A DNA stretch of 64,000 nucleotides, taken from assembly GCF_023638055.1 (NCBI RefSeq), contig NZ_JAKRVY010000004.1:186001-250000 (forward strand), written 5' to 3'. This DNA comes from Natranaeroarchaeum aerophilus (lineage in GTDB: Archaea > Halobacteriota > Halobacteria > Halobacteriales > Natronoarchaeaceae). This document shows positions 55,760-64,000 of this stretch, piece after piece. Made by a program: the position numbers and the translations under genes. The notes beneath the pieces are model-generated. The model was given only the letters and a program-made list of their open reading frames with translations, had not been told where the DNA came from and made no database searches. How positions within the stretch are numbered: the first letter of the stretch is position 1; every line of letters begins with the position of its first letter.

Positions 55760-56362
55760 GTGGTCTGGCAGACACTCGCTGCGCTCCCCGACTGGCTCGT
55801 CGCTGGCGTCGCCCTCGCGGGGGTGTTTTCGGTAATCGTGGCCGGGATCTTCCTCGCCGGACAGCGTCTGATACCGTCATCGACGGGCCAGCGAAAGCGA
55901 CGAACCGACGGGAGTGGCGATGGGATGGCACGTCGCCGCGCCGAGATCAGACACTACTTCGATGCTATCGGAGAGCGCTACGAGGAGGGGCGGACAGTCG
56001 ACGATCAGTACGTCGATTTTTACCTGCCGAGGCGGGGGGTTGCGGTGACGTTCGACGCGCACGTCTACTTCCAGCTCCGGTCGAACGATGTCGAAGCGGT
56101 GCTGGTCGAGCACGAACTGCCGGGCATTGCGCTCGGGAGCAGGCTCCCCTTCGAGACGCCAACCGTGACGATTGACCGATCCGAGGGCGTCCCAACCGGG
56201 GCCTTCACGGAACTGGGCCTATCGACAGACGCGGAGATCAAGGAGATCGAGCGGGCATACCGAAACCGTGTGATGGATGTCCACCCCGACCACGGCGGCG
56301 ACAGCGAGGAGTTCAGACGATTACAGGAGGCATACGACGCCGCGAAAGAGCACGCGAGTTGA
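55760..56362 (+). CDS. Membrane-anchored J-domain protein, GTG start
   Basis: A 200-aa protein. A signal-anchor helix (WLVAGVALAGVFSVIVAGIFLAG) lies in the first 35 residues, a middle beta domain follows (VDFYLPRRGVAVTFDAHVYF), and a C-terminal J-like domain (EIKEIERAYRNRVMDVHPDHGGD) carries the HPD tripeptide. J domains stimulate Hsp70 ATPase. The GTG start is supported by a TATA-like CATTAGTATC about 20-25 bp upstream. Next to a metalloprotease lipoprotein, a role in envelope protein quality is conceivable. Confidence 0.87.
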   Translation: MVWQTLAALPDWLVAGVALAGVFSVIVAGIFLAGQRLIPSSTGQRKRRTDGSGDGMARRRAEIRHYFDAIGERYEEGRTVDDQYVDFYLPRRGVAVTFDAHVYFQLRSNDVEAVLVEHELPGIALGSRLPFETPTVTIDRSEGVPTGAFTELGLSTDAEIKEIERAYRNRVMDVHPDHGGDSEEFRRLQEAYDAAKEHAS

Positions 56363-58918: not shown

Positions 58919-60190
58919 CTACAGTTCGCTCAGCACCGCCTGCGCCGCATCTTTGCCGCTTTCCATCGCCCCGTTGATCGAGGACCAGCGGGTGTACTCG
59001 CCCGCGAGGTAACATCGGCCCTCGGGCGCGTCGACGTTCGGCAGTTCCGACAGCGACCCGGGGGGTTGCTCGAACTGTGCGAAGGGGATCCGCTCGGTCC
59101 GGAGCAACTGGAAGTCGGGGAAGTTCTGCTCGGGATACCACGACGCGAGCGCCCGGCGAGTCAAGTCGTCGAGCCGTGCGTCGGCCTCCTCGCGGTCCCC
59201 GAGGAAGGTCGCACTGACCAGCTGTCGGTCGTCGGGCGCATGCTCGGGGGCGACCCCCGAGTTGACGAGCACCTGATTCGGCGCGTCGCTCTCGGCGTTG
59301 AGGATGAGCCGTTTGCCCGCGCCGAGATCCTTGCCCGCGGGCATCGAGTAGTACTGCGTGACACAGCCCCGGCCGGTGGTCGGGATGGACTCGACACCGG
59401 TTAGCTCCTGGGCGGTCGGCGGATCGGTCGCGACGATGACGGCGTCGGCGTCGCGGTCGTCCCCGTCGACAGTGACGGTCGCACCGTCGTCATCCGCCGC
59501 TATGGCCTCGACGTCGGCATCGAGCGTGATCGTTGCGCCCGATTCGCGCGCGTTATCGGCGAGTTGCTCCGGAATCGCCCCCATCCCCTCGGCGGGAACC
59601 GCGATCAGTCCCTCCGTTAGCATCTTGAAGGTGTACTCGAACACACGCGCGGAGTTCGAGAGCGATCGATCGAGCGTGATCCCCCCGTAGAATGGTGCGG
59701 CAAAGTTCTCGATGAACCCCTCGGAGAAGCCTCGATCGTCGAGATATTCACGGATCGACCGATCCGAGCCGCTGAAGATGGCGGTGTGGGACTTGTTGGC
59801 GAGTTCTCGGCGGAGTGTGAGGACGCGCAGTTTGTCCCGCGTTGTCACCTCACGGTTGAACAGCGAGTCCGTAAACGCCCCTGGATCGCGGAACGGATCC
59901 GACAGGATCGAGCGCTGGCCCTCGCGGGCGATACAGGCACCCGGCGTGAAGTGTCGCAGATCGAGCGCATCGAGGTCGAGTTCGCGCTGGACGGCCGGAT
60001 AAGCGGTGAAAAGCACCTGAAAGCCCCGATCGAACGTATACCCGTCTTCGTGGACCGTCCGGACGCGCCCGCCGACCTCGTCGCGTCGTTCCAGCAGTTC
60101 GACGTCGACCCCGGTCTCGGCGAGATGGCGCGCCGCAACGAGTCCGGCAAGCCCGCCACCCCCGACGAGCACCCGCTTCGTATCTGACAT
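58919..60190 (-). CDS. FAD-dependent amine-oxidase/phytoene-desaturase-like oxidoreductase
   Basis: A 423-aa flavoprotein with the ADP loop KRVLVGGGGLAGLVAARHLAE at the N-terminus, YTFDRGFQVLFTAYP, and the C-terminal YLAGEYTRWSSINGAMESGKDAA typical of the NAD(P)/FAD amine-oxidase/desaturase superfamily. The fold binds FAD tightly and oxidises a C-N or C-C bond. A carotenoid or isoprenoid substrate is plausible in a haloarchaeon but not shown. Convergent with the phosphoesterase. Confidence 0.93.
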   Translation of the reverse strand: MSDTKRVLVGGGGLAGLVAARHLAETGVDVELLERRDEVGGRVRTVHEDGYTFDRGFQVLFTAYPAVQRELDLDALDLRHFTPGACIAREGQRSILSDPFRDPGAFTDSLFNREVTTRDKLRVLTLRRELANKSHTAIFSGSDRSIREYLDDRGFSEGFIENFAAPFYGGITLDRSLSNSARVFEYTFKMLTEGLIAVPAEGMGAIPEQLADNARESGATITLDADVEAIAADDDGATVTVDGDDRDADAVIVATDPPTAQELTGVESIPTTGRGCVTQYYSMPAGKDLGAGKRLILNAESDAPNQVLVNSGVAPEHAPDDRQLVSATFLGDREEADARLDDLTRRALASWYPEQNFPDFQLLRTERIPFAQFEQPPGSLSELPNVDAPEGRCYLAGEYTRWSSINGAMESGKDAAQAVLSEL

Positions 60191-60326
60191 GGGTTCTCGT
60201 TAGCACCCCCGGGTCAAAATTCTACACGTATCGGTCCGCGGCGGGCTGGGGTGGAGGTCGCCGCGCCAACACACCCGCTGTGAGCGGATGGACAGGGATT
60301 AGGCAATGCCGTCACAACCCGTGGGT

Positions 60327-61517
60327 ATGGAAACCAGCCACGCGTTCAGCGGTCTGACGTGTCTCGACTGCGGGACGACGATTCCGGCCGACGAGGTGTC
60401 AGGGCGTTGTCCCGACTGCGGCGGCGTCCTCGACCCACAGTATGAGTACGACGCGATCGAGCTCGATCGGGCGACGCTCGACGACCGCACTGATCGCTCC
60501 CAGTGGCGCTACCGTGAGCTACTGCCGTTCACGCGCGAGAGCGCGGTCAGTCTCGACGAGGGCGGGACGCCACTGGTCGAGTGTCCACGGCTCGCTGACG
60601 AACTCGACGTCGGGCGCGTGCTCGTCAAGGACGACGGTCGGCTTCCGACGGGATCGACTGCGGATCGGGGCCAGTCCCTCGCGCTGACCGCCGCGGCGGG
60701 CCTCGACGTGACCGACGTTGCGCTCCCATCACCGGGCGCAAGCGCGCAGTCTGCGGCGGCGTACGCGGCGCGAGCGGGACTGGACTCCCACGCATTCGTC
60801 CCCTCTCGGACGCCCTTTACCAACAAGGCGATGATCAACGTCCACGGCGGTGACATGAACGTAATCGGCGGGCGCTTTGACGACGCTGTCGATGCCTTCG
60901 AGGATGCGATCGCCGAGGAGCCCTGGCACTCGCTGTCGGCCTTCGACACACCCTACCGTCACGAGGGACGGAAGACGGCGCTGTTCGAGATCGTCGAACA
61001 GCTCGACTGGACACTTCCGGATGCGATCGTTGCCCCAACAGGATCGGGCCTCTCGATTGCCGGACTGTACAAGGGGGCAAGAGAGCTGCGCGAGCTGGGG
61101 CTCGTTGACGACCTGCCCGCGCTGTACGCCGCACAGGCGGCGGGCTGTGCGCCGATCGTCGAGGCCTGGGGTGACGGAGAATCGGAGAGTTCGCCCGTCG
61201 AGCTCCCCGACACGATCTGTGGCGAGCTCGAAATTCCCGATCCGAACGGCTCGGCACACGTTCTCGACGCGCTGGCAGCGACCGACGGCGGTGCCGTCTC
61301 CGTCGAGGATCCGGAGATCCTCGAAAGCGCCGTCACGGCGGCGTCAAGCGAAGGCCTCGAAGTCGGGACGAGTACGGGTGCGGCGCTGGGCGGGACGTGG
61401 CGACTCGCCGAGCGGGATACACTGGCCGAAGACGACTGTGTGGTCGTCCTCAATACTGGGGCCGGAAGCAAAGATGACGACGTGCTCCGGAGCCACCTGA
61501 TGGGCCAGGGGATCTAG
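60327..61517 (+). CDS. Threonine synthase paralogue lacking the PLP lysine
   Basis: A 396-aa fold-type II PLP-family protein. An N-terminal C4 zinc knuckle (CLDCGTTIPADE and CPDCGG) and the threonine-synthase core are present, including SLDEGGTPLVECPRL, GSGLSIAGLYKGA and GTSTGAALGG. The canonical PTGSFKDRG is changed to PTGSTADRG: Ala (codon 60660-60662) replaces the PLP-anchoring Lys. Without it normal synthase chemistry is not expected. It may be a regulatory or binding protein. TATA-like sequence about 27 bp upstream supports this start. Confidence 0.9.
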   Translation: METSHAFSGLTCLDCGTTIPADEVSGRCPDCGGVLDPQYEYDAIELDRATLDDRTDRSQWRYRELLPFTRESAVSLDEGGTPLVECPRLADELDVGRVLVKDDGRLPTGSTADRGQSLALTAAAGLDVTDVALPSPGASAQSAAAYAARAGLDSHAFVPSRTPFTNKAMINVHGGDMNVIGGRFDDAVDAFEDAIAEEPWHSLSAFDTPYRHEGRKTALFEIVEQLDWTLPDAIVAPTGSGLSIAGLYKGARELRELGLVDDLPALYAAQAAGCAPIVEAWGDGESESSPVELPDTICGELEIPDPNGSAHVLDALAATDGGAVSVEDPEILESAVTAASSEGLEVGTSTGAALGGTWRLAERDTLAEDDCVVVLNTGAGSKDDDVLRSHLMGQGI

Positions 61518-62203
61518 GGGTCGATCTCGTCGAGATCGATCGCGGCGACCTCGTCATCGAGCCATTCGCTGAACCAGCGGACTCGTTTGAGCCGCCGATG
61601 GGCGATATCCTGGGCCGTCTCGCTTTCGACCCGGTCGGCGGCGTTCTGGCCACGTTCGAGCACCCGTTCGACCATCTCGGCAGTATCCATGTGCGTGCGA
61701 GCCTCGTAACCCATCCGTAACAGCATCAGTGCCGTTCCGTTCGCACCGATCTTGTCGAGCAGGTCGGCCTCGATGAGACACTGCGTTTCGAGGGGTAGAT
61801 CCTCGACCGATCCCTGATAGGAGTGGTCCCGGACGGCCCGACAGACGCTCTCGACGAAGGATTCGGGATAGTCCCCGTGTGCTTCCAGATACTTGCGTGC
61901 AACTCTCGCACCTTCCTCGGCGTGGACATCCTGCTCGGCGTCGAGCTTCGCGATGTCGTGAAAGAGCGCTGCGACACGGGCGATGTCGACGTCTGCACCC
62001 TCCTTGCGCGCGATTTCCGTCGACAGCTCAACGACGTTCAGGATGTGGTTGTGCCGATACTCCGCGCTGTGCCACGGATACCACCGCATCCGTCCACCTT
62101 CGTCCTCGTTTTGCACGCTCGCCGAGAGATACTCGAAGACGAAATCGGCCATGTCCGCGAACTCCTCTTCAGAGACGCGGGACTCCTTGATTTCAACCCC
62201 CAC
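61514..62203 (-). CDS. HD-domain hydrolase, YfbR/HDc type
   Basis: A 229-aa protein of the HD superfamily. The metal pair is in VAALFHDIAKLDAEQD (HD) after WHSAEYRHNHILNVVEL, and RAVRDHSYQG supplies a further His. The start GTG 62203 (VGVEIKES) has GAGGTGG six bases upstream; GTG 62224 is an alternative. Such proteins hydrolyse nucleotides or phosphate esters. It converges with the threonine-synthase paralogue by four bases. Confidence 0.87.
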   Translation of the reverse strand: MGVEIKESRVSEEEFADMADFVFEYLSASVQNEDEGGRMRWYPWHSAEYRHNHILNVVELSTEIARKEGADVDIARVAALFHDIAKLDAEQDVHAEEGARVARKYLEAHGDYPESFVESVCRAVRDHSYQGSVEDLPLETQCLIEADLLDKIGANGTALMLLRMGYEARTHMDTAEMVERVLERGQNAADRVESETAQDIAHRRLKRVRWFSEWLDDEVAAIDLDEIDP

Positions 62204-62340
62204 AGAACCACCTCGAAAGAGCACGACTGATGTTCATGTTAGTAGCACAAAGGTTCGTTCGACTCTTTAGCGTTACGTATACCAGAGAGATGGATACGCA
62301 GACTGTTCGAGGAGAGCCAGTATCCGGCTGTCGGAGCCAC

Positions 62341-63129
62341 TCAGAACGGTCGTTCGGCGAGCTGTGACCGCGCTGTCGAGTCAATATCGAACACGAACTG
62401 CTCACTCTCGGTGCGCCCGGCACTCGACATGTGTGTGCCAAGGGGTTGTTCGTACGTGATCCGATCAATCTCGACGTCATCGGGGAGATCGTCGGCCACC
62501 ACGACAGCTCTCACCGCTTCGCCGGGGTCGAGGTCGACGGTCGATCCTTTCCAGTCTGCCGGAAGCACGGTATCCGATGCCCGGTGCGATCCGGATGGTC
62601 CGTACTGCTCATTGTCCGTGCCGACAAAGGTCACCCTCCGATTTCCCCGCCAGCGCAGTTGGCGGTCGCTCGTGTTCTCGACGGTGAACCAGGCGAGCGG
62701 TCGGCGGGGGTCGACATCCCCCGTGTTCCACGTGATTCCAGTGAGCTCTGTCTTCCTCACCAGCGAGACGAGCGTGAGCGTGAGATGCTCGCCGTCGATT
62801 TCGAGTCCGACACCTGCACAACATGGCGTCGACTCTGCGCGGGACCGGTCGTGCTCTGTCCCGTCGTTTGCGAGTCGCCAGTTGACGTTCTGGGTCCGTG
62901 TCGTCGCACCACCGTCGGTCGTCGCGGTTTTCGAGGAGACTGATTGTGCTGCAGTTGCTCGATCCTGCCGGCTCTGGATCGCCTCGTAAGCACGCTTGAC
63001 GCGCAGAAACGCGTCCATCGAACCCCCCTGATCCGGATGATGCTCTTTTAACAGCGACCGGTACGCCGATCTGACGGTCTTCTGATCGACGTCGGGCTCC
63101 AGATCGAGGACGGTGTACGGACGCTCCAT
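62341..63129 (-). CDS. J-domain protein with beta-rich C-terminal domain
   Basis: A 262-aa soluble protein. The N-terminal 60 residues are a J domain with the HPD motif (YRSLLKEHHPDQGGSMDAF). A Ser/Thr linker follows, then a beta domain with a Cys pair (TPCCAGVGLEI), WNTGDVDPRRPLAWFTVENTSDRQLRW and a long acidic end. The beta domain resembles extracellular-type Ig/transglutaminase-associated modules, but there is no signal peptide. The J domain should recruit Hsp70. Confidence 0.85.
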   Translation of the reverse strand: MERPYTVLDLEPDVDQKTVRSAYRSLLKEHHPDQGGSMDAFLRVKRAYEAIQSRQDRATAAQSVSSKTATTDGGATTRTQNVNWRLANDGTEHDRSRAESTPCCAGVGLEIDGEHLTLTLVSLVRKTELTGITWNTGDVDPRRPLAWFTVENTSDRQLRWRGNRRVTFVGTDNEQYGPSGSHRASDTVLPADWKGSTVDLDPGEAVRAVVVADDLPDDVEIDRITYEQPLGTHMSSAGRTESEQFVFDIDSTARSQLAERPF

Positions 63130-63218: not shown

Positions 63219-64000
63219 TCAGACAAAGCCGAACACGAACGCTAGCCCCATCACGACCAGCACGATCGCGGTAATCGTCGGCAGGTACGGCGTGTAGCGC
63301 TCGACCGTTTCCCTGTAATGCTCATAGCCCGCGATAAGCAGGAGTGTCGGGGCAAGAATCGCGCCAATAACGGCCAGCGAGTAGATGACCATTAGTTCGA
63401 GACAGAACGTCGTCCCCGCACAGATCGCGAGGATCTGGATCGGCTCCTCGTGAGCGAAGCCGAGCAACAGGGCCGTCGACCCGAGCGTGAACAGCCCTTG
63501 CTGGGCGTGGGACTCGTCGAGATGCTGGTGTCCACCGCCACCGGGGAGGTACGAGCGGATCTGTCCGACGATCCCGGCGTCCTCTTCGTGGTCGTGGTGG
63601 GCTGGGTGATCGTGATCACTATCGTGATGGTGTTCTTCGTGGTGGCTTTCGTGTTCCTCGTGGTGGCTTTCGTGTTCCTCGTGGTGGCTTTCGTGTTCCT
63701 CGTGGTGGCTTTCGTGTTCCTCGTGGTGGCCTTCGTGGTCGTGGTCACCGTCGTGAATGTGTCCATCGCCATGTCCACCGTTGATGTACTCGTTGATACC
63801 GAGCAAGATCAGCAGGGTGCCGGCGAGGACCCCCATCCATGGCCCCTCAGCGAATTCGGCGAATCTACTCACCCAGAAGTACGCGAGCACGAGCGCGACG
63901 CTGCTGACGAGATGACCGGTGCCGAGGATCAGTCCGGCAGCGACGCCGTGTAACCACTTCCGGCGCTTGTCAAGCGCGTAGGTCGCTGCGATCGGCCAGC
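63219..64000 (-). CDS. NicO-like nickel/cobalt transporter, 5' partial, His-rich loop
   Basis: The frame runs off the right window edge at its 5' side, so only the C-terminal 260 or so residues are visible. Helices include LILGTGHLVSSVALVLAYFW, GVLAGTLLILLGINEY and STALLLGFAHEEPIQILAIC, typical of the NicO/RcnA group of nickel and cobalt transporters. Between two helices lies a His/Glu loop with four copies of a 7-residue unit HEEHESH, which likely binds metal. Function as metal export or uptake is inferred. Confidence 0.85.
   Translation of the reverse strand, partial: WPIAATYALDKRRKWLHGVAAGLILGTGHLVSSVALVLAYFWVSRFAEFAEGPWMGVLAGTLLILLGINEYINGGHGDGHIHDGDHDHEGHHEEHESHHEEHESHHEEHESHHEEHESHHEEHHHDSDHDHPAHHDHEEDAGIVGQIRSYLPGGGGHQHLDESHAQQGLFTLGSTALLLGFAHEEPIQILAICAGTTFCLELMVIYSLAVIGAILAPTLLLIAGYEHYRETVERYTPYLPTITAIVLVVMGLAFVFGFV
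63638..63721. repeat. 21-bp tandem repeat encoding a His/Glu heptapeptide
   Basis: CGTGGTGGCTTTCGTGTTCC with a final T repeats four times (63638, 63659, 63680, 63701), with a partial fifth copy at 63722. It lies in the transporter's frame, giving a repeating HHEEHES-type loop on the minus strand. Copy number is likely variable between strains. Confidence 0.9.

Follow-up and report, generated by a model that had tools for sequence, protein, structure and literature searches.

Repeated loss of the PLP lysine from a haloarchaeal threonine-synthase-fold protein, a probable pseudoenzyme

In a 64,000-nt stretch of Natranaeroarchaeum aerophilus DNA (the window), we identified a gene that probably encodes a pseudoenzyme with the threonine synthase fold, one of a set of positional orthologues under selection from which the catalytic lysine would have been lost repeatedly. 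The database label 'threonine synthase' is doubtful for this gene. The gene and the parts of its active site considered first are the following:

60327 to 61517, plus strand: lysine-less threonine-synthase-like gene
60360 to 60419, plus strand: N-terminal Cys4 (C19, C22, C35, C38), a probable zinc knuckle
60645 to 60671, plus strand: PTGSTADRG (canonical PTGSFKDRG), residues 114-122
60660 to 60662, plus strand: GCG codon of Ala119, at the position of the PLP Schiff-base lysine
61035 to 61064, plus strand: PTGSGLSIAG, partly eroded counterpart of the PLP-phosphate loop (columns 246-250)

The intact 403-residue frame spans positions 60306 to 61517 of the plus strand, and residue numbers count from 60306. 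Translation probably starts at 60327 (Met8, METSHAF) rather than at the in-frame upstream ATG at 60306, because a matching METT.AF opens most orthologues. A scan for an upstream promoter and a terminator, with models that omit archaeal promoters, gave no match. The protein matches Pfam PALP (PF00291, E 2.1e-60) and passes NCBIfam PRK08197 'threonine synthase' (325.7 bits versus a cut-off of 303), and it falls below the cut-off of the NCBIfam thrC model TIGR00260 (141.6 versus 167.1 bits). An AlphaFold model computed with 79 family members as input (pLDDT 96.6, pTM 0.94) found its best solved-structure matches in threonine synthases, namely 2c2b (Z 50.1 over 390 residues), 6nmx and 1v7c. Both the Pfam match and the 2c2b superposition place the protein in the fold type II (PALP) threonine synthase fold, which is predicted to be maintained.

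The sequence-only reading had claimed that the PLP lysine is replaced by alanine, and alignment bore this out, with Ala119 (GCG) standing where ThrC has its Schiff-base lysine. Sequencing error, named in that reading as its possible undoing, is unsupported and was rejected, as a congeneric sister species (~92% amino acid identity) has the identical GCG codon, and Ala recurs in two species from a second genus of the family. A substitute lysine was likewise rejected: the window protein has just five lysines (108, 174, 223, 256 and 389), each of them conserved in Lys-bearing orthologues, and no new conserved lysine was found in the alignment across the Lys-less proteins. The further claim that the rest of the fold is kept stood for the overall fold, the PLP-phosphate-loop-like stretch and the Cys4 (each of its columns is Cys in 51-52 of the 52 proteins with Lys and in 82-92 of the 96 without), but not for the PLP pocket. 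The latter is partly eroded in the window protein, where Ala occupies the conserved Asn position N145 and Ser replaces G250, leaving three of the five tested PLP-contact positions. This set of five is complete in 51/52 Lys-bearing versus 18/96 Lys-less proteins.

Lys-to-Thr mutants of tryptophan synthase trap a PLP-amino-acid aldimine. The main functional rival to a pseudoenzyme is a protein that does the same, that is, one that still binds PLP non-covalently and serves as a PLP/amino-acid binding protein or as a slow lysine-independent enzyme. Consistently with this, the 18 Lys-less proteins with all five contact positions mostly have Thr at residue 119, and the fold matches include 2tys, a ligand-bound structure of the K87T mutant of tryptophan synthase. 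Nonetheless, the remaining 78 of 96, the window protein included, are without part of the set, and residue 119 varies freely, even to bulky Leu, Tyr, Phe and Arg, so that we regard aldimine trapping as unlikely.

This variability was evident in an alignment of 154 proteins, including six sequences that are outgroups or the most distant ones and that all have Lys. Residue 119 is Lys in 58 proteins, Thr in 30, Ala and Leu in 20 each, Val in 10, Arg in four, Ile, Tyr, Gly and Phe in two each, and Asn, Gln, His and Asp in one each. Fixation of Ala in an orthologous group, which the earlier reading had put forward as a check, was not what we found: 13 non-Lys residues occur across the class and many same-slot orthologues keep Lys. 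Parsimony requires 35 steps at column 119 versus three at P114, one at T115, four at G116, one at D120 and none at R121, and every more distant relative, bacterial or archaeal, that a genome scan recovered has Lys. Lys also occurs in three lineages of the Lys-less group (L061/L064, L118 and L142); the Lys codon of L061/L064 is AAG, one base apart from the ACG of its sisters, as expected under drift at this position.

At E<=1e-110, a class-wide search recovered orthologues from 311 of the 391 haloarchaeal genomes, mostly one copy per genome. Using the degenerate codon pattern D[DE]xRxPTGxxXDRG, where the second base of the X codon is not A and X hence not Lys, we scored a non-Lys codon in ~179 of the 391 genomes, an approximate figure since codons for Asn, Gln, His, Asp and Tyr escape the pattern and at least two matches (G135 and the second match in G379) are unlike the family. 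The reversed control pattern had no match among the matches listed.

Lys-bearing and Lys-less versions are positional orthologues, because both occupy the same chromosomal slots. In the window, the gene lies between two neighbours with shared synteny:

58919 to 60190, minus strand: divergent FAD amine-oxidase-like gene (PF01593)
61514 to 62224, minus strand: convergent HD-domain gene (PF01966)

The divergent FAD gene adjoins it in several families and the HD-domain gene in many; farther out lie metallophosphoesterase, regulator and DnaJ genes. This FAD/HD slot holds Lys-bearing loci (f7, f8, f9 and some f2 and f4) as well as Lys-less ones (f1/g1, f1/g3, Halococcus and many f5). A second slot, adjoining an LSm gene, is common to both forms in most Natrialbaceae and f4 genomes, and in two species of a single genus it contains a version with Lys (L195) and one with Ala (L153), respectively. 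Same-locus orthologues with Lys, e.g. those of Halopiger, Natronococcus and Halorussus, share ~60% identity, slots and family-specific residues with the window gene, but differ from it in keeping PTGTFKDRG and a complete PLP pocket. Genes for DnaJ-domain proteins at 55760-56362 (plus strand) and 62341-63129 (minus strand) flank the neighbourhood in the window, the first being part of the conserved synteny. Further on, positions 63219-63890 (minus strand) encode a predicted membrane protein without a Pfam match, possibly metal-related, in which HHEEHES units are repeated in a His/Glu-rich stretch.

In the free tree most Lys-less proteins fall together, and parsimony on it implies at least seven Lys/non-Lys changes, or 16 losses if Lys is never regained. 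When the active-site columns were dropped, the Lys-less f2/g45 protein moved into its own family and the minimum became nine (80-protein subset). Constraining family f1 as one clade was not rejected (p-AU 0.108), the log-likelihood of the free tree being better by 25. Our preferred reading of the Lys-less grouping is that convergent pocket erosion pulls these sequences together; the number of losses is uncertain. Synteny and the tree without active-site columns disfavour a single loss, and the aligned sequences indicate that the lysine became dispensable several times among positional orthologues.

The same data bear on a scenario in which two ancient versions were swapped at one locus, either through homologous replacement or because a tandem pair was differentially lost, Lys having been lost once or a few times in a stable paralogue with a function of its own. 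Such swapping would account for the better likelihood of the free tree over the f1-together tree and for the few genomes with two copies, among which G080 and G198 have both kinds. It sits poorly, however, with the presence of both forms in the same slot within families and within one genus, with the return of the f2/g45 protein to its family, with the non-rejection of f1 as one clade, and with the fact that a tandem pair was not seen; we consider it improbable. The two-copy genomes are few within the panel. In G080 (L119 and L143) and G198 (L123 and L141), the Lys-bearing and the Lys-less copy lie at different places, which makes both genomes suitable for comparing what the two forms do. A further threonine-synthase-like paralogue carries one in-frame stop in each of two genomes (G009:C1:732735-733820 and G198:C41:87184-88308).

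Repeated loss of the lysine has not been accompanied by relaxed selection on the whole gene. We obtained dN/dS values of 0.10-0.24 for Lys-less pairs and of 0.12 for the window gene versus that of the sister species, in keeping with the earlier claim that the gene is not decayed. Variation is higher in Lys-less than in Lys-bearing proteins (mean column entropy 1.45 versus 0.74 bits, a gap that stems partly from wider sampling), as a decaying gene would predict; but frames are intact in many genomes, dN/dS is far below 1 and the PTG and DR motifs are invariant. A pseudogene was therefore rejected, and decay of any kind is extremely improbable. Among 49 columns conserved in both Lys-bearing orthologues and outgroups, 34 still reach >=90% in Lys-less proteins; the sole columns below 60% there are K119 (0%) and E231 (55%). 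T88, K108, D120, R121 and R218 are nearly invariant. One of these residues and two segments conserved within haloarchaea map as follows:

60816 to 60851, plus strand: FTNKAMINVHGG, residues 171-182, a motif conserved, by column counts, in both Lys-bearing and Lys-less haloarchaeal orthologues
60957 to 60959, plus strand: R218, found in 52/52 Lys-bearing, 96/96 Lys-less and 6/6 outgroup proteins, and presumably with a substrate-phosphate role
61488 to 61502, plus strand: C-terminal RSHLM motif, residues 395-399, with R395 in 148/148 haloarchaeal proteins and absent from the six outgroup sequences

R168, F171, V179, H180 and R395, among others, are typical of haloarchaeal orthologues, rare in outgroups and kept in both forms, although the haloarchaea-specific columns as a whole are only partly kept in Lys-less proteins (8/22 at >=90%). 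Inside the Lys-bearing clade there are lone losses in L055 (Asn) and L099 (Arg), whose families still possess the full PLP-contact set, which suggests that the lysine was lost first and the pocket eroded later.

The same genome encodes three other threonine-synthase-like proteins, all with Lys in the motif, and one of them, the canonical ThrC L047 (PTGSFKDRG), scores well above the cut-off of the thrC model (294 versus 167.1 bits). With a separate Lys-bearing ThrC encoded, threonine synthesis is not obviously dependent on the Lys-less gene. In Haloferax volcanii, a transposon insertion mutant in thrC3 (HVO_2969) was restored by glycine, serine and threonine together (PMC4300041).

Collectively, a lost and unreplaced essential lysine and purifying selection make the non-catalytic role proposed in the sequence-only reading the best one, and the role itself may be ligand sensing or partner binding. 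A lysine-independent job would already have been present in the family before the losses, since haloarchaea-specific residues are common to Lys-bearing and Lys-less versions; in many lineages this job alone may now be under selection, as the separate ThrC can supply threonine. Retention of the cleft residues leaves some room for a lysine-independent activity instead. In the mechanism that we propose, the two-domain cleft, with R218, K108, T88, D120 and R121 kept, may still bind a small anionic ligand, probably amino-acid-like or phosphorylated. The closed form could then act on a partner protein as a regulatory subunit, possibly by way of two conserved segments, residues 168-182 and the C-terminal RSHLM. 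More tentatively, and with somewhat less than even confidence, this scheme might extend to the whole haloarchaeal orthologous group, so that a lysine-independent function preceded and enabled many separate losses of a near-universal catalytic Lys, and even Lys-bearing members may be selected mainly for it.

The window protein resembles ThrC of the fold type II PLP enzymes (2c2b, 6nmx, 1v7c; PRK08197) in its whole fold, N-terminal Cys4, PTG...DR motif, R218, K108 and K223, but departs from it in the missing Schiff-base lysine, the partly eroded PLP pocket and the haloarchaea-specific conserved segments. Another PLP-fold protein without the lysine is LCB1/SPTLC1, the lysine-less subunit of serine palmitoyltransferase retained as a partner subunit; it differs in being of fold type I, a single stable paralogue and provided with a known partner. 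Rv3778c of Mycobacterium tuberculosis is likewise a PLP-enzyme relative without the covalent lysine and likely noncatalytic (PMC12910592), yet it is kin to cysteine desulfurases, not to threonine synthase. The model for the mechanism outlined above is the catalytically dead deoxyhypusine synthase paralogue of trypanosomatids, which activates its live relative (PMC3663545), a different enzyme for which the partner has been demonstrated. We found no description of such a Lys-less haloarchaeal relative of threonine synthase in the literature covered, which mostly excludes subscription papers.

Pseudoenzymes usually resemble one old duplication. In these haloarchaea, by contrast, one chromosomal gene seems to have changed several times between an enzyme-like and a lysine-less state, all within a single class. 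The orthologues would thereby offer a natural series for the passage from enzyme to pseudoenzyme, with the lysine apparently lost first, the cofactor pocket later and the rest preserved. The label 'threonine synthase' is also probably wrong for many haloarchaeal genes, a point of relevance to metabolic models.
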